Of a DNA stretch of 40,416 nucleotides, positions 8,966 through 30,446 are shown in pieces. Location of the stretch: positions 1 to 40,416 of the forward strand of contig JAUYSB010000032.1 in the NCBI GenBank assembly GCA_030696525.1, read 5' to 3'. A model generated the notes under the pieces. That model saw only the letters and a program-made list of their open reading frames with translations, did not search any database and was not told where the DNA came from. Each line of letters starts with the position of its first letter. The stretch's first letter is position 1. The translations under genes and the position numbers were made by a program. Source of the stretch: Hydrogenophaga sp. Lineage in GTDB: Bacteria; Pseudomonadota; Gammaproteobacteria; Burkholderiales; Burkholderiaceae_C.

Positions 8966-9434
8966 AAGCGCACGAGCGGACTGTTGGTGATATTTGATCT
9001 CCGTAGGTTGGTCCATCCGAGCGGAATGTCGACAAACAATGGGGGCCACCACCGCCTCAGCCGACGCGTCCATCAGCGGCACGATGTTGGGCCCGATCCC
9101 GTGCGTTAAGACCACATCCACGAAGAGGAGCGCTACGTCGTGCAGCCGTACATGGAAAAAGCAGCAACAACGGCGGGCAGAATCTGGCGAGTCCCGACAG
9201 ATGTGCCGCCGCTCAAGAATGGCTATCCCGAACCAAGTGCCAAACAGGGTTTCGCGCTTGACCGGCAGAGCCGGCAGGCGCTTTTCGCCCTGGAGCCCGG
9301 GCAGTTGCTCGGCGCGCAGGTCAACCAGAAAGCGCATGCCCCGAGGGAACATGGCCGAACACTTCAGCAGCCGCGTGCGCTCCGATTACGGCGCCCTGGG
9401 CAAGCGGATTTAGGACACGACGCACACCTCGGCC
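8966..9434. other. Degraded region with no intact gene
   Basis: Frames here are open but do not resemble known proteins. Near its right end, plus-strand codons at 9351-9410 read MAEHFSSRVRSDYGALGKRI, then a TAG, then DTTHTSAES. This resembles the C-terminal helix of Bug/TctC binding proteins and may be the tail of a destroyed copy. The MITE-like element starts exactly where such a tail would end. The Bug assignment is weak. The remainder of the segment shows nothing I can identify. Confidence 0.35.
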
Positions 9435-14585: not shown

Positions 14586-15242
14586 TCACTTGTTCAGAAG
14601 TTGCATTGCTCGATCGTAGGACAAACCGGGCTGCTGCACGTCGAAATGGACCACCTGCAGGCCGCAGCGCTGTGCCCCCAGAATGTTGCGCAGCTGATCG
14701 TCTACAAACACGGTGTCAGAGGCGGCCACGCCGAGTTGCTCCAGGCAGGCCAGATAAGCAGCCGGGTCCGGCTTGAGCACCCCGGTGTAGGTGGCGTCCA
14801 CGATCACATCAAAGAGTTCAAGCAGGGGCAGGCGCTGGCGGAAGTCAGCGCCATAAAACAGGTCGAGCTCATTGGACAGGATCCCCAGGCGATGGCCAAG
14901 AGCCTTGGCGCGGTAGATCGCCTTGACAGCCTCCGGGCGGATAACGGCCCCCACGTCGGCACCACGGGCGCGCTGCACAAAGGTCTGCATTTCAGTCCAG
15001 TCCTCGCCCACGAGGCGCCCGACTTCACGGGTGCGCTGCTGCCAGTATTCGCGCTCGCTGATCTGGTCGGCTTGCATGGCATGCCACAAGGGATCGCCCG
15101 TCGGATCAAATGGACCGCGCCAAGTCAGCGTGCCGGGCGGCAATCCCAGCGCCGCCTCGCTCAGCTCGTGCGTTTCAAACAAGGTGCGGCTGATGACCCC
15201 GCCGAAGTCGAGCAGCAGCGCCCTGGAAGATGGTGTATTCAC
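14586..15242 (-). CDS. HAD-superfamily hydrolase (subfamily IA)
   Basis: This 218-residue cytoplasmic phosphatase- or dehalogenase-like enzyme carries HAD motif I as LLLDFGGVISRT (nucleophilic Asp), motif II as LGILSNELDLF, motif III Lys in TGVLKPDPAAYLACL, and motif IV as TVFVDDQLRNILGA. The DFGGVI form is common in epoxide-hydrolase-N-like and haloacid-dehalogenase-like members. The start is the GTG at 15242, overlapping the UPF0261 stop as GTGA, with GGGAGG just upstream. An ATG farther upstream would lie inside the previous gene. It is the last gene of the P450/amine operon. The substrate is unknown, possibly a phosphorylated by-product or a repair function. Confidence 0.85.
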   Translation of the reverse strand: MNTPSSRALLLDFGGVISRTLFETHELSEAALGLPPGTLTWRGPFDPTGDPLWHAMQADQISEREYWQQRTREVGRLVGEDWTEMQTFVQRARGADVGAVIRPEAVKAIYRAKALGHRLGILSNELDLFYGADFRQRLPLLELFDVIVDATYTGVLKPDPAAYLACLEQLGVAASDTVFVDDQLRNILGAQRCGLQVVHFDVQQPGLSYDRAMQLLNK

Positions 15243-16480
15243 GGCGCCTCCCTCTTCACCAGCCCACGCGCCAGCCAGTCGTCGAATACCACGAGCGCCT
15301 GCCGCACAAACGCCGCGTCGTTGATGTGAGCATCTATGCGCGAGACCTGAACGCCCCCCCAATCGCAGCGATCCAACTCGTCCATCAAGGCCGACAGCCC
15401 CTCGGGGTCGTGCAGTGGCGCACCGGGCCGATCCCACTCTTCGATGCCACACATGGGCAGCACCAGGTGCACAGGTCCCTGTGCTTGGCGCAAGCGGCCG
15501 GCCAGTTCGCGAGCAAATTCGCGGCGCATGTCAGCGTCAATGCCCACCGATGCGATTAGGCGGTTGTGGTCGTGCGAAGGCCGCCCAGCAAAGCGCTCGG
15601 GCACCCGCCCCCAGGCTGGGTAGTCCACCAGGTCGGTGGCCCCAGGGGCCACGATCATGGGCACGCCCTTGCGGCCTGCACCCATCAATCGATCAGGTCC
15701 GGCGCTTACCACAGACCCCCCCATCTGGTTGACCATTTCCTGCAGGCTGAAGTCCATCACGCAGGCAAACTGCCCCTGTGCAGCCAGCGACTCAAACGCC
15801 CGGCCTCCCATGCCCGTGGTGTGGAACACAGCCAAGTCAAAGCCGCGCTGGTCCAGCTCGGGCTTGAGCTGCACCATGTATTTGAGGCAGCTCGCCCCCA
15901 AAGAAGTCATGCCCACCACGGGCCTCGCGAAGCGCGGTGCACGAGCCACGCGACACGCTCCCACCACCGCTCCTGCGGCCTGCGCCAGGGCCGACTGGCA
16001 CAGGCTGTTGAGGCCATAAAGGCCCCCTGCCCACAAAACCATCACCAAATCCGGTGGCATGCGCTCGGGTGGCAACAGGGGCGAAAACGCCACCGTGGAC
16101 AAGACCACCTTGGGCACCCCCAACGGCAAGCTGTTGGCCACGTCCAACGCCAAGTCGGTGCCCATGGTTCCCCCCAACGCCAGCAAACCATCGATCTGCC
16201 CTTCGCGGCACATCGCGGCCGTCAAGGCACTTGCACCCTGGGCCATTAGGGCCATAGCGCTGTTTTCCTCACCGATGTCCATCACCTGCTGCAGTGTTAC
16301 GCCCGCAGCCTGCGCCACATCCGTGTTGGATACATCGGGTGTCACATGCCCTTTAGCCAGCACCCCCACATCCATGATGAGCGGCTGTCCACCAGCAGCC
16401 AACACCTGCTCGCGCATGAAGCCGATCTCATCGCTCTTGGTGTCGACCGTACCGACGATCAGGATGACAGGAGGCGTCAT
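15239..16480 (-). CDS. UPF0261 / Tm-1-like ATP-binding domain protein
   Basis: It has 413 residues, the normal length. The N-terminal domain opens VILIVGTVDTKSDEIGFMRE, the GT-x-DTK signature of the family. GLLALGGTMGTDLALDVANSLPLGVPKVVLST follows near residues 95-128, and a second domain has VFHTTGMGGRAFESLAAQGQ and GRPSHDHNRLIASVG. The plant Tm-1 protein shares this fold and binds ATP. Bacterial members often sit in catabolic operons without an assigned reaction. The start codon overlaps the aminotransferase stop (ATGA) and the stop overlaps the HAD start (GTGA), so it is translationally locked into the amine operon. I cannot say what it does there. A role as an ATP-dependent or metal-dependent enzyme acting on a late intermediate is speculation. 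Confidence 0.88.
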   Translation of the reverse strand: MTPPVILIVGTVDTKSDEIGFMREQVLAAGGQPLIMDVGVLAKGHVTPDVSNTDVAQAAGVTLQQVMDIGEENSAMALMAQGASALTAAMCREGQIDGLLALGGTMGTDLALDVANSLPLGVPKVVLSTVAFSPLLPPERMPPDLVMVLWAGGLYGLNSLCQSALAQAAGAVVGACRVARAPRFARPVVGMTSLGASCLKYMVQLKPELDQRGFDLAVFHTTGMGGRAFESLAAQGQFACVMDFSLQEMVNQMGGSVVSAGPDRLMGAGRKGVPMIVAPGATDLVDYPAWGRVPERFAGRPSHDHNRLIASVGIDADMRREFARELAGRLRQAQGPVHLVLPMCGIEEWDRPGAPLHDPEGLSALMDELDRCDWGGVQVSRIDAHINDAAFVRQALVVFDDWLARGLVKREAP

Positions 16481-17841
16481 GCGCGGCCCTCCTGCACGGC
16501 GGCAAACGCGGCTTCGAGCACGTCACACATGTAGTCCACCTCCACACGGGTGATGACCAGCGGCGGCGACAAAATCAGGTTCGGCCCAGAGATGCGCACC
16601 ATCACGCCAGCCTTGTAGGCCGCCTTGGCCACCCGCGCCGGGATATCGCTGGTACGGGCCATGGGCGTGCGTTTGGTCTTGTCGCTAACCATCTCGATGC
16701 CGAGCATGAGACCTACGCCGCGGACATCGCCCACAAAACTGCAACTGTCCACCAGTTTGCGCAAACGGGTCTGCATGTGCGTGCCAACGCGCCTGGCGTT
16801 CCCAGGAATGTCCAGCGCATCGATCTGGTCGAGCGTAGCCAGGGCGGCTGCGGCCGCGATCGGGTGGGCGCTGTAGGTATAGCCATGGGAGACCGAGGCC
16901 GCGCCCGTGGTATCTGCATCAAATACCTCCGAGATTCGGCGGTTGATGGCCGTGGCCCCCAGCGGCACATAGCCCGAAGAGATGCCCTTGGCAAGACACC
17001 ACATGTCGGCGTTCACGCCCCACAGGCGCGTGCCGAACAGCTCACCGGAACGGCCAAAGCCGGTAACCACCTCGTCGGCGATCAGTAGGACGCCGTACTT
17101 GTCGCAAATCTGGCGCACCAGTGGCCAGTAGTTGGGGGGCGGGACGATCACACCACCCGCACCCTGCACCGGCTCGGCAATGAAAGCGGCCACAGTGTCT
17201 GGTCCCTGAAATACGATCTCCCGTTCGAGCAACTCAGCGCAGATTTCGCCCAAGCGGACCGGATCGTCCGTGTAAGGGTTGTGGTAGGCCCAGGGCGTGT
17301 CGATGTGGAAGCACCCGGGCAACAGCGGCTCGTAGGCGCGGCGGAAGTTGGTGTTGCCATTCACGCTCATGCCGCCAAAGTGCACGCCGTGGTACCCCTG
17401 ACGCAGGCTGATGAATTTGAAGCGGTCGGCCTGCCCCTTGAGCTTCCAGTACTGGCGCGCCACTTTCAGCGCACCCTCTACCGCGTCCGATCCTCCGTTG
17501 GAGAACATCACGGTGGCCACATCTTCCGGCTGCATCATCTGCACCAGGCGCTTCGACAACTCGATCGCCCGCACATGGGTGGTACCACGAAACACGTTGT
17601 AGAACGGCAGTTCGTCCATTTGCGCCACGATGGCGTCGCGCACCGACTTGTTGCTGTGGCCAAGGTTGCAGGCCCAGAGCCCCCCTACGCCGTCTAGCAT
17701 CTTGTGGCCATCCACATCCCAGATCCAGCAGCCTTCACCTTTAGCGATAATGTTCGGCGTCGACTTTTTCATCGCGCCGGGATGGGCCATCGGGTGCCAC
17801 AGGTATTGCGCGTTGTCGGCCTTGAGTTGCTCGTTGCTCAT
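16477..17841 (-). CDS. Class III pyridoxal-phosphate aminotransferase (omega-amino acid type)
   Basis: This 454-residue enzyme transfers the amino group from an omega-amino acid or amine to pyruvate or 2-oxoglutarate. The start is the ATG at 17841 with AAAGGA upstream. The conserved parts are YLWHPMAHPGAM near the N-terminus, MFSNGGSDAVEGALKVARQYW, QGYHGVHFGGMSVNG, LLIADEVVTGFGRSGELFG (PLP-ring Asp) and the Schiff-base Lys in WCLAKGISSGYVPLGA. It most resembles beta-alanine/omega-amino-acid:pyruvate transaminases. It follows the PuuC-like aldehyde dehydrogenase by 17 bases and overlaps the UPF0261 gene, so it likely deaminates the omega-amino acid produced by the pathway. In the Puu pathway the same position is held by PuuE. 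The substrate chain length cannot be read from sequence. Confidence 0.94.
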   Translation of the reverse strand: MSNEQLKADNAQYLWHPMAHPGAMKKSTPNIIAKGEGCWIWDVDGHKMLDGVGGLWACNLGHSNKSVRDAIVAQMDELPFYNVFRGTTHVRAIELSKRLVQMMQPEDVATVMFSNGGSDAVEGALKVARQYWKLKGQADRFKFISLRQGYHGVHFGGMSVNGNTNFRRAYEPLLPGCFHIDTPWAYHNPYTDDPVRLGEICAELLEREIVFQGPDTVAAFIAEPVQGAGGVIVPPPNYWPLVRQICDKYGVLLIADEVVTGFGRSGELFGTRLWGVNADMWCLAKGISSGYVPLGATAINRRISEVFDADTTGAASVSHGYTYSAHPIAAAAALATLDQIDALDIPGNARRVGTHMQTRLRKLVDSCSFVGDVRGVGLMLGIEMVSDKTKRTPMARTSDIPARVAKAAYKAGVMVRISGPNLILSPPLVITRVEVDYMCDVLEAAFAAVQEGRA

Positions 17842-17858
17842 GTCGTATCCTTTCAAAA

Positions 17859-19343
17859 TCACAGCTGAATCCAGGCCGTTTTCAGGTCCAGGTATTTGTT
17901 CAGGGCGTGCATGGACTTGTCGTGCCCGTTGCCCGACTGCCGCACACCACCCAGCGGCACCGTCACGTCCGGGCCACCATAGGTGTTGACATGCACCACG
18001 CCGGCCTTGATGGCGCGCACCATGCGGTGAGCACGCGAGAGGCTGCTCGTCCACACAGCAGACGCCAGGCCATAGCTTGAATCGTTGGCTAAGCGCACAG
18101 CCTCGAACTCATCGTCAAAAGGCAACACCGCGAGCACCGGACCAAAAACCTCTTCTTGGGCAAGGGTCATGTCAGGCGTCACGCCGTCGAACAAGGCAGG
18201 CGCCATGTAACTGCCGCCTGCCACAGGTTGCAACGCCTCGCCCCCCACACGCAGACGAGCACCCTGCTCTCGCGCGGTCTGCACTGCCGCGAGGTTTTTG
18301 GCCAGCTGCCTCGCGCTGCTGACAGCACCGATATCTGTCGTCACATCGAGCGGGTCGCCTACTCGCAGTTTGGTCGCGATCGTGTGCAAGCGCTCCACAA
18401 ATGCGTCGTGCACCGAGCGCTGTACCAAAAGGCGCGAGCCCGCCACGCACACCTGCCCGCTGTTGCGGTAAACGCCCATGGCCGATACCGTGGCCGCCTG
18501 CGCCAGATCAGGCGCATCCTCGAACACAATGTTGGGCGACTTGCCACCCAACTCCAGATAGACCCGCTTGAGGTTGGACTCGGCCGACGCTTTGAGCAGC
18601 ATGCGCCCCACCGGACCCGATCCGGTGAACGTCAGGATGTCCACATCCATATGGCGCGCCAAGGCCTCGCCCGTCACGGCACCGGTGCCGGTGACGACGT
18701 TGAGCGCGCCTGCGGGCAAGCCCGCGTCCAGGCAAAGTTGCGCCAACCGCAGCAAAGACAGCGAGGCATCTTCCGAAGGTTTGAGCACCACCGAGTTACC
18801 CGCCGCCAGTGCGGGGGCGATCTTCCAGGCACCAATCATCAGCGGGAAGTTCCACGGCACGATGGCCGCTACCACGCCCACCGGCTCCTTGTGGACAAGA
18901 CCCAGTGTGCCCTCGGGCGTGGGGGCAATTTCGCCGTTGATCTTGTCCACACATTCGGCGTAGTAGCGGAAGGTGGCCGCCGCGCTGCCCGGCTCAGCCT
19001 TCCAGGCCATGGCGATCTCAGTGCCGTTGTCGCGCACACCCAGCACGGCCAACTCGGCGTGGTGGGCTTCAATGCGGTCGGCAATGCGGTGCAGCACTTT
19101 TTTTCGCTCGGCTGGCGCCATGCGCGACCATCCGCCCCGCTCGAAATGGCGTCGGGCAGCCTGCACAGCACGGTCCACATCTTCAGCCTCGGCAGCTGCC
19201 AAGGTACACAAGGCACGACCGTCGATGGGCGACACAACTTGCAGCGTTTGACCTGATGCGGCAGCGCCCCACCGCCCGTCGATCAGCAGCCCCTGATCAG
19301 GTATGGGCAAGTGGCGCAGCGCGTCAATCTGTTCTTGTTTCAT
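17859..19343 (-). CDS. Aldehyde dehydrogenase, PuuC-like
   Basis: This 494-residue NAD(P)-dependent enzyme oxidises an aldehyde to its acid. Landmarks are VVAAIVPWNFPLMIGAWKIAPALAAGN (cofactor domain), NVVTGTGAVTGEALARH, general base Glu in LELGGKSPNIVF, and catalytic Cys in RNSGQVCVAGSRLL. The C-terminus, with WTSSLSRAHRMVRAIKAG and SGNGHDKSMHALNKY then LKTAWI, closely parallels E. coli PuuC, the gamma-glutamyl-aminobutyraldehyde dehydrogenase, as I remember that sequence. The start is the ATG at 19343 with GAAGG upstream. The frame is open to 19487, but that overlaps the ferredoxin gene. It sits 8 bases after the ferredoxin stop. It is a natural step after P450 oxidation of an amine, taking the ring-opened or dealkylated aldehyde to an amino acid for the next gene's aminotransferase. 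Confidence 0.94.
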   Translation of the reverse strand: MKQEQIDALRHLPIPDQGLLIDGRWGAAASGQTLQVVSPIDGRALCTLAAAEAEDVDRAVQAARRHFERGGWSRMAPAERKKVLHRIADRIEAHHAELAVLGVRDNGTEIAMAWKAEPGSAAATFRYYAECVDKINGEIAPTPEGTLGLVHKEPVGVVAAIVPWNFPLMIGAWKIAPALAAGNSVVLKPSEDASLSLLRLAQLCLDAGLPAGALNVVTGTGAVTGEALARHMDVDILTFTGSGPVGRMLLKASAESNLKRVYLELGGKSPNIVFEDAPDLAQAATVSAMGVYRNSGQVCVAGSRLLVQRSVHDAFVERLHTIATKLRVGDPLDVTTDIGAVSSARQLAKNLAAVQTAREQGARLRVGGEALQPVAGGSYMAPALFDGVTPDMTLAQEEVFGPVLAVLPFDDEFEAVRLANDSSYGLASAVWTSSLSRAHRMVRAIKAGVVHVNTYGGPDVTVPLGGVRQSGNGHDKSMHALNKYLDLKTAWIQL

Positions 19344-19351
19344 GAACGCCT

Positions 19352-19666
19352 TCACTCGGGGACATGCAGAACGATGCCGTCCAGCGCACTCGTCGCGATT
19401 AGCTGGCAGCTCAAACGGCTGCCGCTTTGGCGCGGCGAGGTGACGACGTCGAGCATGGCGGTTTCCACCTCGCCCATGGGCGGGCAAGCGGCCAGCCAGA
19501 CGTCATCCACATAAACATGACAGGTCGCGCACGACAAGCAACCGCCGCATTCGCCGTGGATGCCTGCAATGCCATTCAGCTGGGCTGCATCCATCAAGTT
19601 GGTGTTTTCGTTGACATCGTCGCTGACGCGCTCGCCATTGGGCAAAATCCAGTGCACTTTGGGCAT
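19352..19666 (-). CDS. [2Fe-2S] ferredoxin, putidaredoxin/adrenodoxin type
   Basis: This 104-residue soluble electron carrier has cluster ligands Cys40, Cys46, Cys49 and Cys87, in the CGGCLSCATCHVYV segment and LSCQL. The CX5CX2CX37C spacing is the same as in putidaredoxin. An extra Cys43 lies within the first loop. AAGGAG precedes the ATG at 19666 at good spacing. The frame extends upstream to 19741, but those 25 residues are not conserved. It sits between the reductase and the aldehyde dehydrogenase. Its role would be to carry single electrons from the FAD reductase upstream to the cytochrome P450 in the same cluster, forming a class I P450 redox chain. Confidence 0.95.
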   Translation of the reverse strand: MPKVHWILPNGERVSDDVNENTNLMDAAQLNGIAGIHGECGGCLSCATCHVYVDDVWLAACPPMGEVETAMLDVVTSPRQSGSRLSCQLIATSALDGIVLHVPE

Positions 19667-19747
19667 GTTCTGCTCTCCTTCAAAGTTCAAAAACAAGGGG
19701 CGTGATTCCGTCCCTCGGAAAAAATGTGTGGTGGCGCTCATGCCCGC

Positions 19748-21064
19748 TCATGGCGCCACGCTGCTGCGTGCTTGAGGCATCCAGTCCTTTATGTGGTGGT
19801 CCTTATTGGCCAACCATTCGGGGGGAGGGTATTGGCCAGTTTCCAACCATTTCTTGCCCGAGACATATGCCACAGGGGCTTGCCACGCATCGACTGCGAC
19901 CAGCCGATCCCCTAGGTAAGACCAGATGCTGTGCCCCTGCCCCCCCTCATGACGCTCCACCCAACGATCGGCCGACTGCCACAAGCCAGCAATTTGCAAA
20001 CGACCGCCATATTGGTCGGACCAGAACCAAGGTACAAAAGGGGATGGTTCTGGTCTGGCCATCATGGCCGCAGCCACCAAAGCGGCTTGGTGGTGGGCGT
20101 TGCCCACCGATTCGATGCGCATCGCTTGGTCCATGTGTCTGGCCACATCCCCCACTGCCCAGATGGCGCGGTCTTGAGTTTGACCCTGGGCATTGACCAG
20201 CACACCATCGCCCACCTCTAAACCACAGTCTTTGGCCAAATCGTCACGGGGTACCGTGCCAATGCCGGCCAACACCAAGTCAGCCTTAAGCTCGCGCAAA
20301 TCGCCCTCGGCGGTTCGGATTCGAACGTTGCTGATTTTTCCCTCCTCGCGCTGCAGCGCGACGACCTGAGCGCCTTCGAACAGCCGCACGCCATGGGACT
20401 GGTGCAGCTGGCGCATCAACCGTGAGGTAGCCTTCGGAGCCACGCGTTGCAAAACACGCGGCGCTTGCTCCACGATGCACACGTCACAGCCCAGGGCCCT
20501 TGCCGTGGCAGCGACCTCCAGACCAATGTAGCCGCCGCCGACGATGACCAGATGGCCGCGGCCCACCATGGCGGCGCGCAAGGCCGCCGCGTCCTCCACA
20601 TCCCGCAACACATGAAGGCCTTCGGCGACGCCCAAAGCGCCGCCGCCATTAACCGGATCGGTCCATGGTCGCGGAGCCGAACCAGTCGCCAAAATGAGCG
20701 CGTCGTAGCCTATGGCCTCGGGGGCTGATGACGATTTCAAGTGCACACGACGCGCCGCACGGTCAATGTGGGTGACCCTGGTTGATACATGGCGTGTCAC
20801 ACTGTTGGTCACGTACCAGGGCTCGGGGCGCAGACTCAGCGATGTCCGATCAGTCCCTTCCAACAGAGCCATTTTGGACAGTGGCGGCCGGTGGTAGGGC
20901 AAGCCAATTTCGGCGGAAATCAGCACCAGCTGACCGGCAAAACCTTGACTGCGCAGCTGCGCCAGCACGGCTACACCGGCATGACCACCTCCGACCACCA
21001 CCACAGTGGCGTCTGGCGCCAGAGGCTGTCTGGGCTCTGTGGTTGATGAAGTGGTCGCGTTCAT
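19748..21064 (-). CDS. FAD-dependent ferredoxin reductase (putidaredoxin-reductase type)
   Basis: This 438-residue flavoprotein has two Rossmann folds: VVVVGGGHAGVAVLAQLRSQG near the N-terminus binds FAD, and HLVIVGGGYIGLEVAATARALG in the middle binds NAD(P)H. LPYHRPPLSK is the typical PdR-family segment, and AIWAVGDVARH is the second FAD-contact motif. The C-terminal domain includes FWSDQYGGRLQIAGL. The start is the ATG at 21064 with AGGAG upstream; the frame is open to 21115 without a better site. The ferredoxin gene follows after 81 bases. A 146-base gap separates it from the GS-like gene upstream, so a secondary promoter is possible there. With the ferredoxin and P450 it completes a self-sufficient electron supply. 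Confidence 0.95.
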   Translation of the reverse strand: MNATTSSTTEPRQPLAPDATVVVVGGGHAGVAVLAQLRSQGFAGQLVLISAEIGLPYHRPPLSKMALLEGTDRTSLSLRPEPWYVTNSVTRHVSTRVTHIDRAARRVHLKSSSAPEAIGYDALILATGSAPRPWTDPVNGGGALGVAEGLHVLRDVEDAAALRAAMVGRGHLVIVGGGYIGLEVAATARALGCDVCIVEQAPRVLQRVAPKATSRLMRQLHQSHGVRLFEGAQVVALQREEGKISNVRIRTAEGDLRELKADLVLAGIGTVPRDDLAKDCGLEVGDGVLVNAQGQTQDRAIWAVGDVARHMDQAMRIESVGNAHHQAALVAAAMMARPEPSPFVPWFWSDQYGGRLQIAGLWQSADRWVERHEGGQGHSIWSYLGDRLVAVDAWQAPVAYVSGKKWLETGQYPPPEWLANKDHHIKDWMPQARSSVAP

Positions 21065-21175
21065 CGCGATCAACTCCTTTGCCACGGGCACGCTGCACGT
21101 GGTCGCTGTGAACAAGCGCTGGATAAGCCAAGGACGCTCTCCCCCGCAATGTCACAACTCATGGTCTCTGGATTT

Positions 21176-21188
21176 TGTCCAATGGACA
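21176..21188. promoter_or_regulatory. 13-bp palindrome in the gap between GS-like and reductase genes
   Basis: TGTCCA (21176-21181) and TGGACA (21183-21188) form perfect arms around one A. It lies in the only sizeable gap (146 bases) of the operon, 112 bases upstream of the reductase start. It may be an internal operator. No clear promoter boxes are seen beside it. Confidence 0.3.
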
Positions 21189-21210
21189 CCAAGGATCGCA
21201 CGGCTTTCCT

Positions 21211-22503
21211 TCAGATAAAACGGATGTAGTAATCCCGAAGCGCAGCGTCTTCTAAAGCAGCCGTGCGTTCAATTTCGTGGCGCTTGATACCTACATGGTT
21301 GGCCACCAGGCCCGCGCCAAGCGCCTGACCCAGTGCCGTGTCGGCTTCGAGCGCGTCCAGCGCCCCGGCCAAGGTTTCGGCCACACTTTGGGTAGCGTCC
21401 TTGCTTTCCAGGCAGTCGCCGGTCTCCATGGGCTGCAGCGGGTAGGCATGGGCCACGCCCATGCGTGCTGCCTGAAGGACGGCGGCGGTGTGGGTATAGG
21501 GGTTAGCCGTGGCATCGCCCATGCGATGCTCAATGCGGGCGCCCGGCCCCGCCTCGGCCGACAAGCGCACGGTGACGCCACGGTGGTCCACCCCCCAGTT
21601 CTGCCAGAAGCCCGAGAGGCTCGCTGGTTTCAGGCGTTGGTACGAATTGGTGCTGGGCGCCAGAAGCCCCGCCAACGCCCGGTGGTGCTGCATCAGCCCG
21701 GCGGTGCAGCCAAGGGTCAGCGCGTTGAACTTACTGGCGTCATTCCCACCCGAGATCGCGTTTTGGCCCTGCGCGTCACGAAGGCTGAAGTTGATGTGCA
21801 CGCCGCTGCCACCCACAGTAAGGATGGGCTTGGGCATAAAGGTCAGCACGATTCCGTGCTGGATAGCCACTTCTCGGGCCAGCAGGCGGAACAGGAAAAT
21901 GTCGTCCACCGCCCTAACCGCCCGGTCGTAGGTCAGCGTGAACTCAAACTGGGGCGCGTCGAATTCGGTGTTCATGCTGTCGATGCGAAAGCCTGCGGCT
22001 GTGGCTCTCTCCCACAGCACATCGGTAAAGCCCCTCGGGTCCGCAAAGGGGCCTGTGGCGTACACATGGGCTGAAGGCGTGTCGTAGGGTTTGAGTGAGC
22101 CATCAGGCTCGATCTGGAAGGCAAAGGCCTCGAGCTCGATGCCCACCATTGGGTCGTAGCCCAGCGCCTGCCAATCGGCAACGGCGCGCTTCAATGCAGT
22201 GCGCCCGCACATGGGCAGAGGCGTGCTGTCGTTGGCTTTCATGTCACCAATGGCGACCTGGGTGAACGGCTGCCAGCCGGCTCGGATGTCTTCGGGCGCG
22301 TAGACGGCCTCCATGTCGGGCAGACCCTCCATGACCATGGCTCCGGGGACGGGTATCAGCTCTTTCTCGTAGGTCACACCAAAGGTGCCTCGGCAAAAAC
22401 GAGCGCCACCGCCCTGACCGGGTTTGAGCGTGATGTATTTGCCACGCGCGATTGCAAGGTGGTCACAGAACAGCACTCGCAGGCGTTCTTGAACATTCGT
22501 CAT
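21211..22503 (-). CDS. Glutamine-synthetase-like ligase (probable gamma-glutamyl-amide synthetase)
   Basis: This 430-residue ATP-grasp-type ligase of the GS fold joins the gamma-carboxyl of glutamate to an amine in its pathway relatives: PuuA for putrescine, IpuC for isopropylamine, TdnQ/AtdA1 for aniline. Metal and substrate residues are present: GIELEAFAFQ (two Glu), NTEFDAPQFEFTL (two Glu), GSGVHINFSL (His) and ARIEHRMGDATANPYTH (Arg-Ile-Glu and NPY). The ammonium-site region differs from true GlnA, as expected for an amine-using member. GAAGGGAA precedes the ATG. It follows the P450 gene by 11 bases. Its presence between a P450 and a P450 reductase, not near nitrogen-regulation genes, argues against a housekeeping GlnA. 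The amine substrate is unknown. Confidence 0.92.
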   Translation of the reverse strand: MTNVQERLRVLFCDHLAIARGKYITLKPGQGGGARFCRGTFGVTYEKELIPVPGAMVMEGLPDMEAVYAPEDIRAGWQPFTQVAIGDMKANDSTPLPMCGRTALKRAVADWQALGYDPMVGIELEAFAFQIEPDGSLKPYDTPSAHVYATGPFADPRGFTDVLWERATAAGFRIDSMNTEFDAPQFEFTLTYDRAVRAVDDIFLFRLLAREVAIQHGIVLTFMPKPILTVGGSGVHINFSLRDAQGQNAISGGNDASKFNALTLGCTAGLMQHHRALAGLLAPSTNSYQRLKPASLSGFWQNWGVDHRGVTVRLSAEAGPGARIEHRMGDATANPYTHTAAVLQAARMGVAHAYPLQPMETGDCLESKDATQSVAETLAGALDALEADTALGQALGAGLVANHVGIKRHEIERTAALEDAALRDYYIRFI

Positions 22504-22514
22504 GGTGTTTCCCT

Positions 22515-23780
22515 TCAGATCAAGTGCATGCGCACGGGCAACCGCTTAATGCCCGAGACGAAGTTGGACCGCAAAAACGTGTGCGCTGCGGTCTGCTCAA
22601 TGCGGTCGACCCGCTTGATCAGCTCCTGCAGCATGACGCGCAACTCCAGACGGGCCAGCCACATTCCCAGACAAGCGTGGGGGCCGCCCTGACCAAACGA
22701 GAGGTGGCGGTTCACGCCCCGGCGAAGGTCGACGGTGAAGGGCTGCTCAAACGCCCGCTCGTCACGGTTGCCCGAGATGAACCAGAGCAGCACCTTGTCG
22801 CCCGCTTTGACCTGTTTACCGTGGTATTCGAAGTCCTCGGTCGCGGTACGGCGAAAGTGCGTGGCTGGGGAAGCCCAGCGGATGAACTCGTCGGCCACGC
22901 CCTCCCAGGCGGCCTCTCCTTCCAAGGCCTTGAGCTGCGCCATCAGACCTGGCTGGTTGGCCAGCGCGTACAGGGCTGCGGCAATCGAATAGCGCGTGGT
23001 GTCGTTGCCCGCGGCCACCAGCAGGCAAAAGAAGTTGCGAAACTCGGTGTCGCTGATCACGTTGCCCTGGGCGTCAGGCTGAGTGATCAGGTGCAGCACA
23101 CCGCTGGTGTCGCCCGCAGAGCGCTTGCGCTCCATCAACTGGGCAGCGTATTCGTACAGTTCCGCACCAGCGGGCGAGCGAAACGGCATGAAGCGGTAGG
23201 CCTCGGTGTCCATCTTGTCGACCACATGGCTGGTGAAATCGCTGTCGGTGTTGGCCATAAGAGCATCGCCCTTGTCGACCAGCCAGTCCAAGTCATCCTC
23301 GGGTAGACCCGCGACGCGCCCGAGCATGCGCATGGGCAACTGGCGAGCGATCTGGTGCGTAGCGTCAAACTCCCCCAGTGTCAGGGCGTGGTCGAGGATG
23401 CTGACACAGAGTTCACGGATCTGGTCTTCGTAAAGCGACATCATGGGCTTGGAAAAAGCCTTGGCCACCAGCATGCGCGTGCGCGTGTGTTCTGGGGGAT
23501 CGGTCTCCTGAAAAGTCCGCCGCGCTAGGTACTCCTCATGCGTTTGGTCCTCCATGCGAATGCCCTGGGCTGAACTCAGGCGCTGGTGGCTTCGGTTGAG
23601 TTCGAGGATGTCGGCGTGGCGCGTCACCGACCAAAAGCCTTTGCCATCAGACCAGTCACACCAAGCCATCGGATCTTCGTCACGCATGCGCTTGAAGGTG
23701 TTGTGAGGCGCGCCGTTCACATAGCTGTCGTGGTCCGACAGGTCGGCATGTCCATCGTCGGTGGGGATCCAAACCGTCAT
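22515..23780 (-). CDS. Cytochrome P450 monooxygenase
   Basis: This 421-residue soluble bacterial P450 needs a ferredoxin and reductase, and both are in this operon. Visible hallmarks are the I-helix oxygen-binding motif LLVAAGNDTTRYS, the K-helix Glu-x-x-Arg in DEFIRWASP, and the heme loop LSFGQGGPHACLGMWLAR with the axial Cys at residue 370. The loop has the longer FGxGGPHxCLG form found in some actinobacterial and proteobacterial CYPs. HTRTRMLVAKAFSKP is the C-helix heme-propionate segment. The start ATG overlaps the amidotransferase stop (ATGA). The likely reaction is carbon hydroxylation next to nitrogen, causing N-dealkylation or ring opening. That is inferred from GS-like, aldehyde dehydrogenase and aminotransferase neighbours. 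CYP family assignment needs an alignment. Confidence 0.96.
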   Translation of the reverse strand: MTVWIPTDDGHADLSDHDSYVNGAPHNTFKRMRDEDPMAWCDWSDGKGFWSVTRHADILELNRSHQRLSSAQGIRMEDQTHEEYLARRTFQETDPPEHTRTRMLVAKAFSKPMMSLYEDQIRELCVSILDHALTLGEFDATHQIARQLPMRMLGRVAGLPEDDLDWLVDKGDALMANTDSDFTSHVVDKMDTEAYRFMPFRSPAGAELYEYAAQLMERKRSAGDTSGVLHLITQPDAQGNVISDTEFRNFFCLLVAAGNDTTRYSIAAALYALANQPGLMAQLKALEGEAAWEGVADEFIRWASPATHFRRTATEDFEYHGKQVKAGDKVLLWFISGNRDERAFEQPFTVDLRRGVNRHLSFGQGGPHACLGMWLARLELRVMLQELIKRVDRIEQTAAHTFLRSNFVSGIKRLPVRMHLI

Positions 23781-24505
23781 TGATTAGCTTCCTTTGCATG
23801 TTCCAAAAACTGCACCATCCATTGCCCAAAAAGCTGCACATCGGCGGCAGTGGTCAGGCTGCCGTGAGCGCGGGCCAGTGTGGCGGCATCGAGCTTGTCG
23901 TTTAGGTAGCCCAGCAAAGCTTGCATGAACACCAGCGGCATCTCGGGGTGGTACTGCGTGGTCCAGATGTGCTGACCGATCTGCATCGAGCCAATGGGGC
24001 AGAAATCGCTTCCACCCAGGCACTCAGCACCTTCGGGCATGAGGGTGACCTGCTCGTTATGGGCGGCCATCAAAGTGGTCCGGCCCTTGAACGGCGTCAT
24101 CCAGGGGCGCGGCGCAGGCCAATTCGTCAGCGCGGCGCCCAGGCCCCAGCCTGCGGCGTTGCGCTCCACCCTCCCACCCAGCGCCCGGGCCACCGCTTGG
24201 TGGCCAAAGCACAGACCGATCAGCGGCTGGCGCGCCGCATCAACAGCCCAGATGAAATCCAGTAGCGGCCCAACCCAAGGCAAGCGGTCGTCGTTGACCG
24301 AGGCCGGACTACCTGTGATGACATAGCCGTCGAAGGCCTGCGGGCTGGCGGGCAGCACGCCGTCCTTGACCGGCACCACCTCAAAAGTCCAACTGGGCCG
24401 CAGCGGTTGCAACAGTTGCACCACCTTTTCCCCGTCGTTCGGAAAACGCGCAGCAAACAGCGAGGTGTCATCGTTGGTCAGTAAAACGGCAATGCGCAGG
24501 TTCAT
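23777..24505 (-). CDS. Class I glutamine amidotransferase-like hydrolase
   Basis: It has 242 residues with a stand-alone GATase-1 fold. The catalytic Cys is in PLIGLCFGHQAVARALGG and the His-Glu pair in TTQYHPEMPLVF; YVITGSPASVNDD is the oxyanion-side segment. No synthetase domain is attached, so it is not an ordinary amidotransferase. In aniline degradation the comparable TdnT/AtdA2 protein hydrolyses gamma-glutamylanilide, and in the Puu pathway PuuD, a different branch, removes gamma-glutamyl. The likely role here is removal of the gamma-glutamyl group from the pathway intermediate or excess conjugate. It is the first gene of the operon. GAAAGG precedes the ATG, and its stop overlaps the P450 start. 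The motif LCFGHQ places it nearer GMP-synthetase-type GATases than PuuD. Confidence 0.9.
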   Translation of the reverse strand: MNLRIAVLLTNDDTSLFAARFPNDGEKVVQLLQPLRPSWTFEVVPVKDGVLPASPQAFDGYVITGSPASVNDDRLPWVGPLLDFIWAVDAARQPLIGLCFGHQAVARALGGRVERNAAGWGLGAALTNWPAPRPWMTPFKGRTTLMAAHNEQVTLMPEGAECLGGSDFCPIGSMQIGQHIWTTQYHPEMPLVFMQALLGYLNDKLDAATLARAHGSLTTAADVQLFGQWMVQFLEHAKEANQ

Positions 24506-24637: not shown

Positions 24638-24765
24638 TGTGCGGTGATTTCTGGTGCTCAGGACTCCCAGTTTGACTTTCGACAAGGGCTGGTCTCAGGG
24701 GGTTGTTTGCGCTGCCTACCTGCCCAGCTATGACGACTTGTTCCGCTAACGAAGTGATCACAAGA

Positions 24766-25230
24766 TGGGCCTGCGCCACACTCTGGCGAACCCCGAAGGC
24801 CAGGCGCGAGGCGATCCGGATGGTTATCAGTGAAAGCTCTTTTCACGAACTCGTGTCTCGCCTCTACCGGAAGGCCAACCTGGTCGTGCGCCGGTGCAAG
24901 AAGGGCAAGCGAACTCTCTACGATCACGCACCGCTGCAACTGGCTCGCATGGTCAACAGGGGTGTAGAGCGTGAATTTTGTGAGCGACATCCACTCAGGC
25001 GGACGGCTCTTGAAGTACCTCGCGGTGGCCGACGACTTCAGCCACGAAAGCGTCGGCATCGTGATGGGCTTCCATGCTGTAGACCGGTACGTGACGCCGG
25101 TGCTGGACCGCGCTGCGCTGTTTTGCAGGTATCCGCCGCACCCTCATCCAGGCTGGCGGCCGATGCAATAACGACTATATCGAGAGCTTCAGCGGCGCGT
25201 TCCATGACGAACACTTGAACGGGGGCTGTT
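24766..25230 (+). pseudogene. IS3-family OrfB transposase remnant
   Basis: Pieces in three frames match the IS3/IS407-type integrase. The first is RLYRKANLVVRRCKKGKR and PLQLARMVNRG around 24850-24960. The next is NFVSDIHSGGRLLKYLAVAD then DFSHESVGIVMGF around 24970-25075, where the first catalytic Asp survives. The last is NDYIESFSGAFHDEHLN around 25167-25220, whose Glu is the last DDE residue. Between them there are frame changes and deletions; the second Asp region and OrfA are missing. No terminal repeats were found. It separates the amine operon from the divergent AraC/EutR-like gene, so it may have split an original regulator-operon promoter region. Confidence 0.75.
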
Positions 25231-25374
25231 CTGCGTTGCCCTGCGATACATCACCTCACGTTCGAGGGGCATCATTTTTCAAGTACTGATCAATTTTGCG
25301 CAAATTTTTGGTCGGGTTAACCTGCGATGACGAGCTTAAAGCTGCCATGCAAAATCAAATACCAACCGTCTTCC

Positions 25375-26361
25375 ATGTGCACCGCAGCCTTGTCTTCCAG
25401 ACATCACACCCCCTCCCCAAATTCGCCGTGGGTCCAAGTGCTGGAGACCCAGGACATGGACCAGCACGCCTTGACCCAACAGGGCTGGGCACTGCAGTAT
25501 GAGCAGCTCTCGTCCGGTCAGTTCAAGGGGCATATCCACCAGGTGCTGCTGCCCGAAGTCACCCTGCTGCGCGAAGAAACCAACATCGCGCTGCGCCAGC
25601 GCGGGCGACTCGATGACGGCGTCTACGGCTTTGCAATGGCGCTACAGGACACGCCTGACTTGTTCTTCAACGGCCAGAGAGTTCCCCCTCACGCCATCAT
25701 GTGCGGCAAGGGGGACGAGGTGGACCTGACTACCCCGCCCCACTTTACCTTGATCGCGGTGGTGGTCGAGCGCAACCTGCTCAATCCGCTGTGGGAGCGC
25801 ATGTACCACAAGCCTCTGGCCCATTGGCTGGAAAAACAGCTGGTGCTGCCAACCACCTACATCAAGGCGCACAACCTGCGCAACCTTCAGCTGACCGTGT
25901 TGGGCCAGGCCAGTGCTTTGACACACCGCCAACACGACCCGCAGGCACTGCGTCAATTGCGCGACGAGATCCTGATGGAATGGCTCGAAGCCCTGCCCGC
26001 GCAGGTGGACACCACCGAGCTTCCCAACTTGGAGCGACGCAAGAAACTCGTGGACCAAGCCTGTGAGCTGATGCTGAGCCACGCCGACGAACCACTGTCC
26101 ATCTTGGAAGTTTGCAGCCGTGTGGGCGCCAGCAAGCGCAAGCTCAACTACTGCTTTCAGGACGTGCTGGGTACCACGCCCATCAAGTACCTGCGCTCAC
26201 TGCGCTTGAACAGCGCGCGGCGGGGGCTGCGGCAGGCAGCGCCTGGCGTGACGATACAGGACATTGCCTCGCACTGGGGCTTCTGGCACCTGAGCCAGTT
26301 CGCCCAAGACTACCGACGCTTGTTTGGCGAGCTGCCTTCAGAAACACTTCGCAAACGATGA
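25375..26361 (+). CDS. AraC-family regulator, EutR-like
   Basis: This is a DNA-binding regulator. From the ATG at 25375 it has 328 residues. The segment PWVQVLETQDMDQHALTQQG and then WALQYEQLSSGQFKGHI is characteristic of EutR-like AraC proteins. The C-terminal double helix-turn-helix has LSILEVCSRVGASKRKLNYCFQD and IQDIASHWGFWHLSQFAQDYRR then LFGELPSETL. The start is uncertain: ATGs at 25327 and 25456 are in frame, and the last has a GGAGA at good distance but would remove part of the conserved N-terminus. EutR itself senses ethanolamine plus cobalamin, so an amine-related effector is a reasonable guess. It is divergent from the P450/amine operon and co-directional with the DUF2817/Bug/amidase genes. 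Either could be its target. Confidence 0.88.
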   Translation: MCTAALSSRHHTPSPNSPWVQVLETQDMDQHALTQQGWALQYEQLSSGQFKGHIHQVLLPEVTLLREETNIALRQRGRLDDGVYGFAMALQDTPDLFFNGQRVPPHAIMCGKGDEVDLTTPPHFTLIAVVVERNLLNPLWERMYHKPLAHWLEKQLVLPTTYIKAHNLRNLQLTVLGQASALTHRQHDPQALRQLRDEILMEWLEALPAQVDTTELPNLERRKKLVDQACELMLSHADEPLSILEVCSRVGASKRKLNYCFQDVLGTTPIKYLRSLRLNSARRGLRQAAPGVTIQDIASHWGFWHLSQFAQDYRRLFGELPSETLRKR

Positions 26362-26695
26362 GTACTCACCAGCAAACAGAGATCACCGCCATGCTGATCA
26401 CGTCGGCCGGTTTACTTTTTTTTGCCCCACCCAGATGTCCTGGCAAGACCTGGCCTTGCTGGTTATGGTGGCGTTGGCCGGCTCTTATGGGCCGTACTTC
26501 ATGGTGTTGGCTTTTTCAAGAGCACCCGCCCCGGTCATGTCACCCTACCTGTATTTAGCCATCGGTTTTTCTGCGCTGGGCGACCGGTGGATGTTCAATC
26601 ATCTGACCGATGCCGTCGCCTTATGCGACGTGCTGATGATCGCAGACTTTGGCATGGTGGCAGGCTGGCTTAACCAACAAAGGAACAAACCATGA
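26362..26695 (+). pseudogene. Truncated, frameshifted EamA/DMT-family transporter
   Basis: Only the second half of an EamA (drug/metabolite exporter) protein remains. TEITAMLITSAGLLFFAP is read in one frame. After the run of eight T at 26416-26423 the sequence continues in another frame as MSWQDLALLVMVALAGSYGP then YFMVLAFSRAPAPVMSPYLYL and IADFGMVAGWLNQQ. An intact protein would need about 150 more residues upstream, but the AraC stop is at 26361. The last four bases overlap the DUF2817 start (ATGA), suggesting that the intact ancestor was in this operon. The T-run suggests slippage or, alternatively, a sequencing error. The missing N-terminal half argues that it is truly broken. Confidence 0.75.
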
Positions 26696-27762
26696 CCACG
26701 GAGCTTTTCAGCCCCAACTATCTTGAGTCACGTGCACGCTTTGTGCAGACCACCCGCGCCTGCGGCGCGCAGTTGCACACCTACACCATGCCCTGGCAAG
26801 GAGCACTTGGCGAAGACCTTGCCATGGACGTCGCCATCCACGGTCCAGCCGATGCTTCGCGGGTGCTGTTGACCACGAGCGCAGTGCATGGCGTAGAGGG
26901 TTTTTGCGGCTCGGCCATTCAGACAGGCTTGTTACAAAGCCTCTTGTCGCCGCCCGATGTGGCAGTGGTGCATGTGCATGCCGTCAACCCGCATGGCTTT
27001 TCGCACGCACGGAGAGTTAACGAAGACAACGTCGACCTCAACCGAAACTTCATCGACTACAACCAGCCCTTGCCGGTCAACAGCGACTACGCCCAGATCC
27101 ATGCAATGCTTCTGCCAGAGCACTGGCCACCGACACCTGAACAGTTCGCCAAACTGGATGCACTGACCCAAACCTGGGGCATGCGACGTATGCAGCGAGC
27201 CATCACCAGCGGGCAATACCAATTCCCGCAGGGTTTGTGGTTCGGAGGGTTCGGTCCCACCTGGAGCCACCGCACCTTCCGGCAGGTGCTACAAGACCAC
27301 TTGACGCAAGCCAGCGAGATTGCCTGGATAGACCTCCACACCGGACTAGGCCCGCACGGCCATGGCGAGCGCATCTTTGCCTGCAACGACACCGGAGAAA
27401 CGCTGCAGCGCGCCCGCCAGTGGTGGGGACCGGAAATCACCTCGGTGGACACTGGTACCTCCCAAAGCGTGCCCCTGTCCGGCCCGATCCAGATGGCCAT
27501 CTACGAAGAATGCCCCCAGGCCCAATACACGGGCATCTGCCTAGAGTTTGGCACCTTGCCCCTGTCACAAATGATCCTGGCCATGCGTGCCGACCACTGG
27601 CTGGCCCTGCACCCCGAGGCTCAGACCGAGCTGCGCCATGCTGTCCGCTCCGACATGCTGCAAGCCTTCAACCCACCCTCCCCTGCTTGGCAAGAACAGG
27701 TCTGGCAGCAAGGAGTGCAAGCTGCGCGGCAGGCTATACATGGCTTGGCCCTTCCACGTTGA
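26692..27762 (+). CDS. DUF2817 / M14-like zinc hydrolase
   Basis: This 356-residue protein has a carboxypeptidase-like (M14) fold. Probable zinc ligands are His and Glu in SAVHGVEGFCGSAIQ and a later His in IDLHTGLGPHGHGE. VHAVNPHGFSHARRVNEDNV and DLNRNFIDYN are the DUF2817 signature, and CLEFGTLPLSQM provides the C-terminal Glu. There is no signal peptide, so it is probably cytoplasmic. AAAGGA at 26679-26684 precedes the ATG. Family members are predicted peptidases or deacylases with no agreed substrate. It is encoded between a broken EamA exporter and a Bug binding protein plus two amidases, so cleavage of an amide or N-acyl amino compound is plausible. Confidence 0.9.
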   Translation: MTTELFSPNYLESRARFVQTTRACGAQLHTYTMPWQGALGEDLAMDVAIHGPADASRVLLTTSAVHGVEGFCGSAIQTGLLQSLLSPPDVAVVHVHAVNPHGFSHARRVNEDNVDLNRNFIDYNQPLPVNSDYAQIHAMLLPEHWPPTPEQFAKLDALTQTWGMRRMQRAITSGQYQFPQGLWFGGFGPTWSHRTFRQVLQDHLTQASEIAWIDLHTGLGPHGHGERIFACNDTGETLQRARQWWGPEITSVDTGTSQSVPLSGPIQMAIYEECPQAQYTGICLEFGTLPLSQMILAMRADHWLALHPEAQTELRHAVRSDMLQAFNPPSPAWQEQVWQQGVQAARQAIHGLALPR

Positions 27763-27779
27763 ATCGCCCTTTCTCGGGA

Positions 27780-27806
27780 AAACCCCGCCCAGGGTTTGCA
27801 TTTTTT
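27780..27806 (+). terminator. Candidate intrinsic terminator after DUF2817 gene
   Basis: AAACCC (27780-27785) and GGGTTT (27792-27797) form a 6-bp stem with a 6-base loop. Three bases later comes a run of six T (27801-27806). It lies 17 bases after the stop and 90 bases before the next gene, so it could end or attenuate the upstream transcript. Confidence 0.5.
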
Positions 27807-27896
27807 CGATACCGTCAAACCTATACCTTGTTCAGACTGTGGCCCTGTCCCGGGGTGAGGACCGCCCCTCCACAATGGCTAACAAGGAAGATCACG

Positions 27897-28874
27897 ATGA
27901 TTTCACGCCGAAAGATTTCACACCTGCTCGCAGGCCTATTGGGCAGCCTGATTGTGCTCAGTGCCTCTGCACAGGGGTTCCCCAGCAAGATGGTCACTGT
28001 GATGGTGCCCTTCCCTGCGGGCGGTCCGTCTGACGCTGTGGCACGGCTGGTGCAGGTCGAATACGAAAAGAACCTGGGTCAAAAAATGGTGGTCGAGAAC
28101 CTCGGTGGGGTCAGTGGCGCGCTAGGAGTCCAAAAAGTGCTGGGCGCTCCAGCCGATGGTTATTACCAATTGCTCAGCACCCCGATGGAACTGGTGACGG
28201 CACCGCTGGCCCTGTCGGCAGTGAAATTCAAGCCAGAAGATGTGCGCATGGCGAGCCTGATGGGACGTACCTCGATCGGCCTGGCTGTGCGCAAGGACCT
28301 GCCGGTCAACAACCTGCAGGAATTCCTGGCGTGGGCCAAAGGCAGGCAGGTCAGCTACGCCAGCGTAGGCCCGGGGTCGCTTTACCACATCATGGGCGAG
28401 CGCTTCAAAACACTGACCGGGCTGGATATGCTGCACGTGCCCTACAAGGCCGCAGTGCAAATCTACACCGACCTGGGCGGCAACAGCATCGACATGGCTT
28501 TCGTACCGGTCGCAGGGCCCATTATCGGCATGGCCAAGGACAACCGCTTCAAGATCATCGGCATCTCGTCTACCGCCCCCCACCCACAGCTGCCCGATGC
28601 TGCCCCCATCAGTGCGCACAAGGACATGAGCGATTTCGTCTTTGACATCTGGATCGGTTTGCAAGTGGCCCGGAACACGCCCGATGCCGTGGTGCAAAAG
28701 CTCAACCAGGCCATGAACGAAGCCATCAAGTCAGAGGGTTTCATCAAAGGGATGAACAGCACGGGCAGCCAGGTGCCCGCGAACATGAGCCTCGCTGAAC
28801 TCGACCGCTTCTACGCCCAAGAGGTGAACCGCTACCGCACCCTGTTCAAGGCCGCAAACGTCCAGCCGCAGTGA
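27897..28874 (+). CDS. Bug-type (TctC) periplasmic substrate-binding protein
   Basis: This 325-residue secreted protein has the signal peptide MISRRKISHLLAGLLGSLIV with cleavage after ASA near residue 25. Family segments are MVTVMVPFPAGGPSDAVARL, KMVVENLGGVSGALGVQKV, PADGYYQLL, LHVPYKAAVQIYTDLGGNSI and VVQKLNQAMNEAIKSEGF. AAGGAAG at 27884-27890 precedes the ATG. The frame is open upstream to 27237 but only overlaps the DUF2817 gene. No permease is near it. It is followed by two amidase genes, so its ligand may be an amide or carboxylate used by them. Compared with the Bug protein at 10846 it is only distantly similar, so they probably bind different ligands. Confidence 0.94.
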   Translation: MISRRKISHLLAGLLGSLIVLSASAQGFPSKMVTVMVPFPAGGPSDAVARLVQVEYEKNLGQKMVVENLGGVSGALGVQKVLGAPADGYYQLLSTPMELVTAPLALSAVKFKPEDVRMASLMGRTSIGLAVRKDLPVNNLQEFLAWAKGRQVSYASVGPGSLYHIMGERFKTLTGLDMLHVPYKAAVQIYTDLGGNSIDMAFVPVAGPIIGMAKDNRFKIIGISSTAPHPQLPDAAPISAHKDMSDFVFDIWIGLQVARNTPDAVVQKLNQAMNEAIKSEGFIKGMNSTGSQVPANMSLAELDRFYAQEVNRYRTLFKAANVQPQ

Positions 28875-28971
28875 GGAGCCGTGCACAGCGCATACACGCT
28901 GCCTTTGCGTCCGAGACATGTACCTCACGGTTGCATGTCCGGATTCTTCTTTGGAAATGCACACCGCTGGC

Positions 28972-30444: not shown

Positions 30445-30446
30445 CA

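Follow-up and report, generated by a model that had tools for sequence, protein, structure and literature searches.

Which compound is consumed by an operon that joins a glutamine synthetase (GS)-like ligase to a cytochrome P450? We addressed this question for contig JAUYSB010000032.1 (positions 1 to 40,416, forward strand) of Hydrogenophaga sp. assembly GCA_030696525.1 (3.97 Mb, 80% complete); this whole stretch of 40,416 nucleotides is called the window below. Its operon encodes a class I glutamine amidotransferase (GATase)-type hydrolase, the P450, the ligase, a ferredoxin reductase, a [2Fe-2S] ferredoxin, an aldehyde dehydrogenase (ALDH), and a class III aminotransferase. A preliminary description had read these seven genes as one leftward unit, and Pfam confirmed their order, strand, and coordinates; all seven proteins were encoded on the minus strand, each above its cut-off (Table 1). 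Genome comparisons linked the operon to homoprotocatechuate (HPC) catabolism, and we tentatively read it, at close to an even balance, as a system for arylethylamine catabolism, most likely of tyramine, that ends in HPC.

Co-occurrence with homoprotocatechuate genes

The link to HPC catabolism was established by co-occurrence. In 292 Rhodobacterales genomes, P450 orthologues were counted at E ≤ 1e-100 and HpaH at E ≤ 1e-70. The P450 orthologue was present in 45 genomes. HpaH, found in 99, occurred in 44 of these 45 (the exception was G605) and in 55 of the 247 P450-negative genomes (p = 2.6e-23, ignoring kinship); by the curated cut-off, the figures were 43/45 versus 47/247. A DOPA decarboxylase (DDC) homologue was present in 133 genomes, comprising 44 of the 45 P450-positive genomes (all but G638) and 89 of the 247 P450-negative ones (p = 2.7e-16, again ignoring kinship). 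Among 48 genomes carrying the module, HpaH was detected at E ≤ 1e-40 in 43 and above its cut-off in 40, and the HpaB family in only seven. HgmA, counted in genomes with the module, was found in 30 of the 48 and in none of 10 Limnohabitans genomes, for which reason the homogentisate link was ranked second.

Orthologues of the aminotransferase and of the UPF0261 protein encoded next to it were present in all 40 P450-positive genomes tested (of 45) and in 25 of the 40 HpaH-positive, P450-negative genomes tested (of 55), with p = 1.2e-5 for the aminotransferase. Of the 40 P450-positive genomes, 24 had the aminotransferase and 23 had UPF0261 no more than 20 kb from the P450. Of the 25 P450-negative genomes with an aminotransferase orthologue, 13 had it at most 20 kb from HpaH, indicating that the aminotransferase block is tied to HPC independently of the P450. 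The UPF0261 orthologue was usually near the aminotransferase; the TM1040 copy lies at L103:24820-26052. In Limnohabitans, HpaH was present in 10/10 genomes and HpaB in 0/10, and L. parvus carries a contiguous HpaR-HpaG-HpaG-HpaE-HpaD-HpaF-HpaH-HpaI cluster with no adjoining hydroxylase. The source genome contains HpaH and HpaI above their cut-offs, together with weaker HpaG- and HpaE-like genes.

To compare gene neighbourhoods, three P450 orthologues were searched against genome contigs, and 80 loci were taken out of at least 101 confirmed candidates; with L021 and L022, these made 82 related loci, 81 of them distinct (L021 is L039). Neighbours in Rhodobacterales included HpaF, HpaE, HpaD (of two types), HpaG, HpaH, HpaI-type and homogentisate genes, and a pyridoxal phosphate-dependent decarboxylase. 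Within about 10 kb, HPC-type clusters accompanied 14 of the 48 non-betaproteobacterial loci, homogentisate genes seven, the decarboxylase eight, and any of these 20. At L053, the order was HpaE-HpaD-HpaG-ADC-DDC-P450-GS-ferredoxin-reductase, and the P450 start meets the decarboxylase stop. This decarboxylase scored 745 bits against the Pseudomonas putida DOPA decarboxylase 7xin (next chain, 374), whereas that of Marimonas (L075) was less decided (371 versus 342 bits). The module adjoins hpa genes and a DDC homologue at L059 and L100, and P450-GS pairs adjoin HpaD/HpaE-like genes in Rhodospirillum, Nitriliruptoraceae (L090), Novosphingobium (L104), and Streptomyces canus (L105). We consider it probable that the amine handled by the operon feeds HPC.

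The preliminary description had instead favoured a cyclic or secondary amine such as morpholine or piperidine. P450 and GS pairs are present in such degraders, and excerpts of one study describe a GS raised together with PipA-like P450 clusters in Gulosibacter (PMC9477822). However, no neighbouring or co-occurring gene across the 82 loci pointed to such a substrate, whereas the HPC genes and the DDC homologue pointed elsewhere; on this comparison of gene neighbourhoods and co-occurrence, a cyclic or secondary amine appeared very improbable.

The ligase, the P450, and a proposed route

The ligase retains the GS residues for ATP, metal, and glutamate (E129, E131, E212, E220, H269, R321, R339, R355, E357, and R359), and its ammonium site is changed (D50→C, S53→T, Y179→V, and E327→L, also H271→N). 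We take D50, S53, Y179, and E327 to be the residues that handle ammonium in GS. PuuA, IpuC, GlnT, and others are altered at the same positions. Because these residues are replaced and the rest kept, the ligase should glutamylate a larger amine, and E327→L would suit a hydrophobic one. In the tree, the ligase family formed its own clade of 28 rows (support 100/100) apart from GlnA, and its link to PuuA and IpuC was weak (79/53). The named ligase scoring best was IpuC (160 bits), and TdnQ did not appear by name among the plasmid matches listed. Identity with true GlnA was rejected on the replaced residues and the separate clade, in agreement with the preliminary description, and gamma-glutamylation with a class I P450 as oxidant is therefore the right kind of system. 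We judge it very likely that the operon ligase gamma-glutamylates an amine.

Among PDB chains, the P450 matched CYP125MRCA best (309 bits), the GATase matched gamma-glutamyl peptidase 1 (E = 5.5e-14), and the aminotransferase matched 5lh9, an "omega transaminase" (511 bits). By eye, the GATase contains the active-site motifs GLCFGHQ and QYHPE, the P450 shows its haem-Cys, ExxR, and I-helix motifs, and the ferredoxin has the expected cysteines.

We infer the following substrate, order of steps, and position of P450 attack. The ligase would use ATP and glutamate to convert tyramine to gamma-glutamyl-tyramine (step 1), and the P450, served by the ferredoxin and reductase, would hydroxylate the ring to give gamma-glutamyl-dopamine (step 2). 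The GATase would then free dopamine (step 3), the aminotransferase would convert it to 3,4-dihydroxyphenylacetaldehyde (step 4), and the ALDH would oxidize this aldehyde to HPC (step 5), which would undergo meta-cleavage by HpaD-E-F-G-H-I, encoded elsewhere in the genome, to central metabolites (step 6). The order of ligase, P450, and amidotransferase has a precedent in the excerpts of PMC6776027, and the route would give a role to each operon gene except those for UPF0261 and the HAD-like hydrolase. No bacterial gamma-glutamyl-tyramine or gamma-glutamyl-dopamine route was found in the literature searched, which comprised open-licence papers, so that one may exist in print. Ring hydroxylation of gamma-glutamyl-tyramine as such by the P450 is possible, if somewhat doubtful. 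It is a still more speculative proposal that tyramine is hydroxylated to dopamine solely in the form of its gamma-glutamyl amide, which masks the amine, with the P450 replacing HpaB and feeding HPC in freshwater Limnohabitans and marine Rhodobacterales.

Several observations weigh against this route. The p values given above are too strong because the genomes are related, and DDC or HpaH lay within 20 kb of the P450 in only 12 of 40 P450-positive genomes. HpaB was present in 16 of the 292 Rhodobacterales genomes, in 2 of the 45 with the P450, and in 7 of the 99 with HpaH; since it was absent also from 50 of the 55 HpaH-positive, P450-negative genomes, its absence does not mark the P450 as the hydroxylase. 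At L053, L090, L104, and L105, the HpaD and HpaE matches fell under the curated cut-offs (127-139 versus 316 and 461-518 versus 638 bits), and those enzymes may therefore cleave another catechol. L053 yielded no GATase or aminotransferase, neither is annotated in the Streptomyces stretch, and the Streptomyces GS lay outside the ligase clade. At L103, paaABCD adjoins the module, which fits phenylacetate and not HPC. If the decarboxylase acts on L-DOPA, as its nearest solved relative does, the ring would already be a catechol and step 2 superfluous. In the source assembly, which is 80% complete, the scanned ORFs included no HpaD. The DDC homologue was found in 0/15 betaproteobacterial genomes, so that the amine would there come from outside; the amidases and the TctC receptor beside the operon could supply it.

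A different P450 reaction was also considered, in which the enzyme attacks gamma-glutamyl-dopamine (or -tyramine) at the carbon adjacent to its amide nitrogen. This N-dealkylation would yield an arylacetaldehyde and glutamine, the ALDH would produce the arylacetate, and the GATase would merely edit unused conjugate. Excerpts of PMC11335346 suggest that the GAT-like NpaA2 just reverses glutamylation, which is in line with such an editing role. L053 and the Streptomyces cluster, without a recognised GATase or aminotransferase, nevertheless have the ligase, P450, and ALDH, and arylacetate as a common product would also fit the homogentisate and paa neighbours. However, no role would be left for the conserved aminotransferase of the window, and in the published Ipu route the P450 places its hydroxyl group on another carbon. 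N-acyl carbinolamides are also fairly stable, which counts against N-dealkylation. The data do not decide between the two reactions; N-dealkylation, which would require neither GATase nor aminotransferase, suits L053 and Streptomyces better, and for the system as a whole we regard it as unlikely.

Relation to known systems

The gene combination had been thought perhaps undescribed, and this did not hold. Plasmid pTC1 of Paenarthrobacter aurescens TC1 carries GATase-P450-ferredoxin-reductase-ipuC, so the combination is known in kind, and similar sets occur in Paenarthrobacter sp. AT5 and Sagittula stellata. In the excerpts of PMC6776027, isopropylamine is glutamylated, and an amidotransferase and a multicomponent P450 also take part in its processing. 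The Ipu clusters of TC1 and AT5 share with the window a GS-like ligase, a class I system of P450, ferredoxin, and reductase, a GATase-type hydrolase, and an ALDH or short-chain dehydrogenase/reductase nearby. However, the P450s are only 28-30% identical and on a separate branch, the GS proteins are 26-30% identical, and the window hydrolase belongs to another subfamily with no significant similarity by BLAST (E = 0.18); the Ipu substrate is aliphatic, and no HPC link was seen. An Ipu-like aliphatic-amine route with an indirect HPC link is suggested by the IpuC score and by the shared part set of TC1, yet with P450s just 28% identical and hydrolases unrelated, it would leave the 44/45 HPC and decarboxylase links unexplained, and we consider it improbable.

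According to excerpts of PMC11335346, the aniline and 1-naphthylamine systems (TdnQ-TdnT, AtdA1-AtdA2, and NpaA1-NpaA2) also combine a GS-like ligase, a GAT-like protein, and a catechol-making oxygenase. Their oxygenase is a Rieske dioxygenase, whereas that of the window is a P450, and no Rieske dioxygenase was found among the window genes scanned; NpaA1 (8wwu) matched the window ligase at only 94 bits.

The Escherichia coli Puu pathway has the same protein roles, and the analogy drawn earlier stood for the ALDH, which is 50% identical to PuuC and has PuuC as its top NCBIfam match (550 bits, under the cut-off of 850). It failed for the hydrolase, whose match to PuuD covers 71 residues at 26 bits (E = 4e-4) and does not make it PuuD-like, and for the aminotransferase, only 27% identical to PuuE; a Puu pathway with nothing but the oxidase exchanged was rejected on these two proteins. 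No PuuB-type flavin oxidase was found among the operon genes, and in the Puu pathway a diamine is oxidized at its free amino end, unlike the route proposed for the window. The 3,4-dihydroxyphenylacetate catabolon of P. putida U, which takes tyramine and dopamine, probably shares the end point of HPC meta-cleavage, and there the amine is reportedly removed by other enzymes.

The AraC-GS-GATase-P450 set of S. stellata (L117:5775-10227) matches the window in its GS-GATase-P450 triad and in the type of regulator, with identities of 37% for the P450 and 38% for the GATase. It differs in its GS, just 24% identical and of another clade, and adjoins genes for a salicylyl-CoA hydroxylase and a ring-hydroxylating dioxygenase; it may encode a sister pathway that handles a different aromatic amine. 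The window system, too, could keep its architecture and act on phenethylamine, tryptamine, octopamine, or a methoxylated amine. The decarboxylase family spans Tyr, DOPA, and Trp decarboxylases, paa and homogentisate genes adjoin some loci, and the related Sagittula set lies near other aromatic genes. However, of the ring-cleavage pathways searched genome-wide (HPC and homogentisate), HPC was the one whose marker co-occurred in 44/45 genomes, and homogentisate dioxygenase was absent from 10/10 Limnohabitans; we find such a substrate quite unlikely.

Distribution, surroundings, and implications

In a same-order sample of 399 genomes, source genome included, the P450 had matches at E ≤ 1e-40 in 11, with more than 40% identity in only three (its own, G234 at 92%, and G175 at 68%). 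Among the matches listed, its nearest relatives were from Limnohabitans (Comamonadaceae; 89-93% identity), Proteobacterial orthologues from many genera were 60-93% identical, and those of Actinomycetota were 49-53% identical. Such identity across many Proteobacterial genera argues that the gene grouping is not due to chance. In the tree, the P450 and its orthologues from Alpha-, Beta-, and Gammaproteobacteria and Actinomycetota grouped in a separate clade, and the listed loci came from Limnohabitans, other Burkholderiales, Rhodobacterales, Rhizobiales, Rhodospirillum, and Actinomycetota.

Across the 82 loci, the GS cluster was present in 75, the ferredoxin cluster in 55, and the reductase cluster in three, with a reductase in a fourth locus (L024) by BLAST. 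The complete class I P450 chain noted earlier is thus real in the window and not a general trait. In betaproteobacterial (n = 34) and other (n = 48) loci, respectively, the counts were GS 33 and 42, GATase 30 and 27, ferredoxin 26 and 29, ALDH 29 and 22, aminotransferase 28 and 17, UPF0261 31 and 10, and reductase 2 and 1; these are minima, since proteins were clustered at 35% identity and some contigs are cut. The HAD hydrolase cluster (c7) was present in 33 among the 82 loci and the window. By tblastn, distant GATases were found in L090, L094, and L098, and none in L053, L076, L091, L092, L096, or L097. In L091, L092, L096, and L097 (Acidimicrobiales/Microthrix), the P450 orthologue is flanked by FAA-hydrolase/ADC-family genes on one side and by an acyl-CoA-dehydrogenase-like gene on the other, with no adjoining GS. 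An entire Limnohabitans-type operon (P450 93% identical) was seen in L023 (CALQKH020000001.1), a metagenome-assembled genome titled Akkermansia muciniphila, a title that seems to be a mislabel.

Table 1. Operon and flanking genes of the window
Feature	Coordinates	Strand	Evidence
HAD-like hydrolase	14586..15242 (start uncertain, maybe longer)	-	PF00702, 67 bits
UPF0261 / Tm-1-like protein	15239..16480	-	PF06792, PF23189
Class III aminotransferase, predicted amine transaminase	16477..17841 (longest ORF to 18054)	-	PF00202 (Aminotran_3), 331 bits
PuuC-like aldehyde dehydrogenase, NAD(P)-type, predicted to oxidize an arylacetaldehyde	17859..19343 (longest ORF to 19487)	-	PF00171 (Aldedh), 552 bits
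[2Fe-2S] ferredoxin	19352..19666 (start 19666 or 19741)	-	PF00111 (Fer2), 31.5 bits
FAD ferredoxin reductase	19748..21064 (longest ORF to 21115)	-	PF07992 (Pyr_redox_2), 204 bits; PF14759 (Reductase_C), 64.6 bits
GS-like ligase, predicted to make the gamma-glutamyl amide of an amine larger than ammonia	21211..22503	-	PF00120 (Gln-synt_C), 231 bits
Cytochrome P450, predicted hydroxylase of gamma-glutamylated amine	22515..23780	-	PF00067, 64.7 bits
Class I GATase-type hydrolase, predicted to cleave a gamma-glutamyl amide	23777..24505	-	PF00117, 43.8 bits
AraC-family regulator, divergent from operon	25327..26361	+	PF12833; NCBIfam EutR 164 and AndR 95 bits, both under cut-off
DUF2817 protein, TctC solute receptor, two amidases	26692..31889	+	Pfam

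The spacing was operon-like, with 4-base overlaps between GATase and P450 and between aminotransferase and UPF0261 and a gap of 11 between P450 and GS; the largest intergenic gap (about 146) precedes the reductase. The leftward unit extends past the aminotransferase into UPF0261 and the HAD hydrolase, and the likely starts of the reductase, ferredoxin, ALDH, and aminotransferase lie inside their longest ORFs.

The AraC-family regulator adjoins the GATase in 24 loci, window included, and the DUF2817/TctC/amidase block was seen again next to the regulator in 10-13 loci; the genes of this block are possibly supply genes linked to the operon. No Pfam-recognised gene lies between the operon and the AraC gene (24.6-25.3 kb), where 24658-25250, read by eye in several frames, looks like a decayed IS3-family transposase. 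A DDE_3 transposase ORF (13347-14156, minus strand) lies near the operon end. Weak matches (24-27 bits) to both malonyl-CoA decarboxylase domains were observed at 8297-9352 (minus strand), and several Limnohabitans carry a full malonyl-CoA decarboxylase gene (cluster c15) downstream of their operon.

If the proposed route is true, it would represent a previously unassigned use of arylethylamines in abundant freshwater and marine bacteria, with a P450 working on an aromatic amine in its gamma-glutamylated form and providing a catechol source for HPC operons without HpaB. It also offers a candidate substrate class for genes now annotated merely as P450 and "glutamine synthetase family protein". 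The gene set is widespread in aquatic bacteria, and the proposal is testable in culturable strains.

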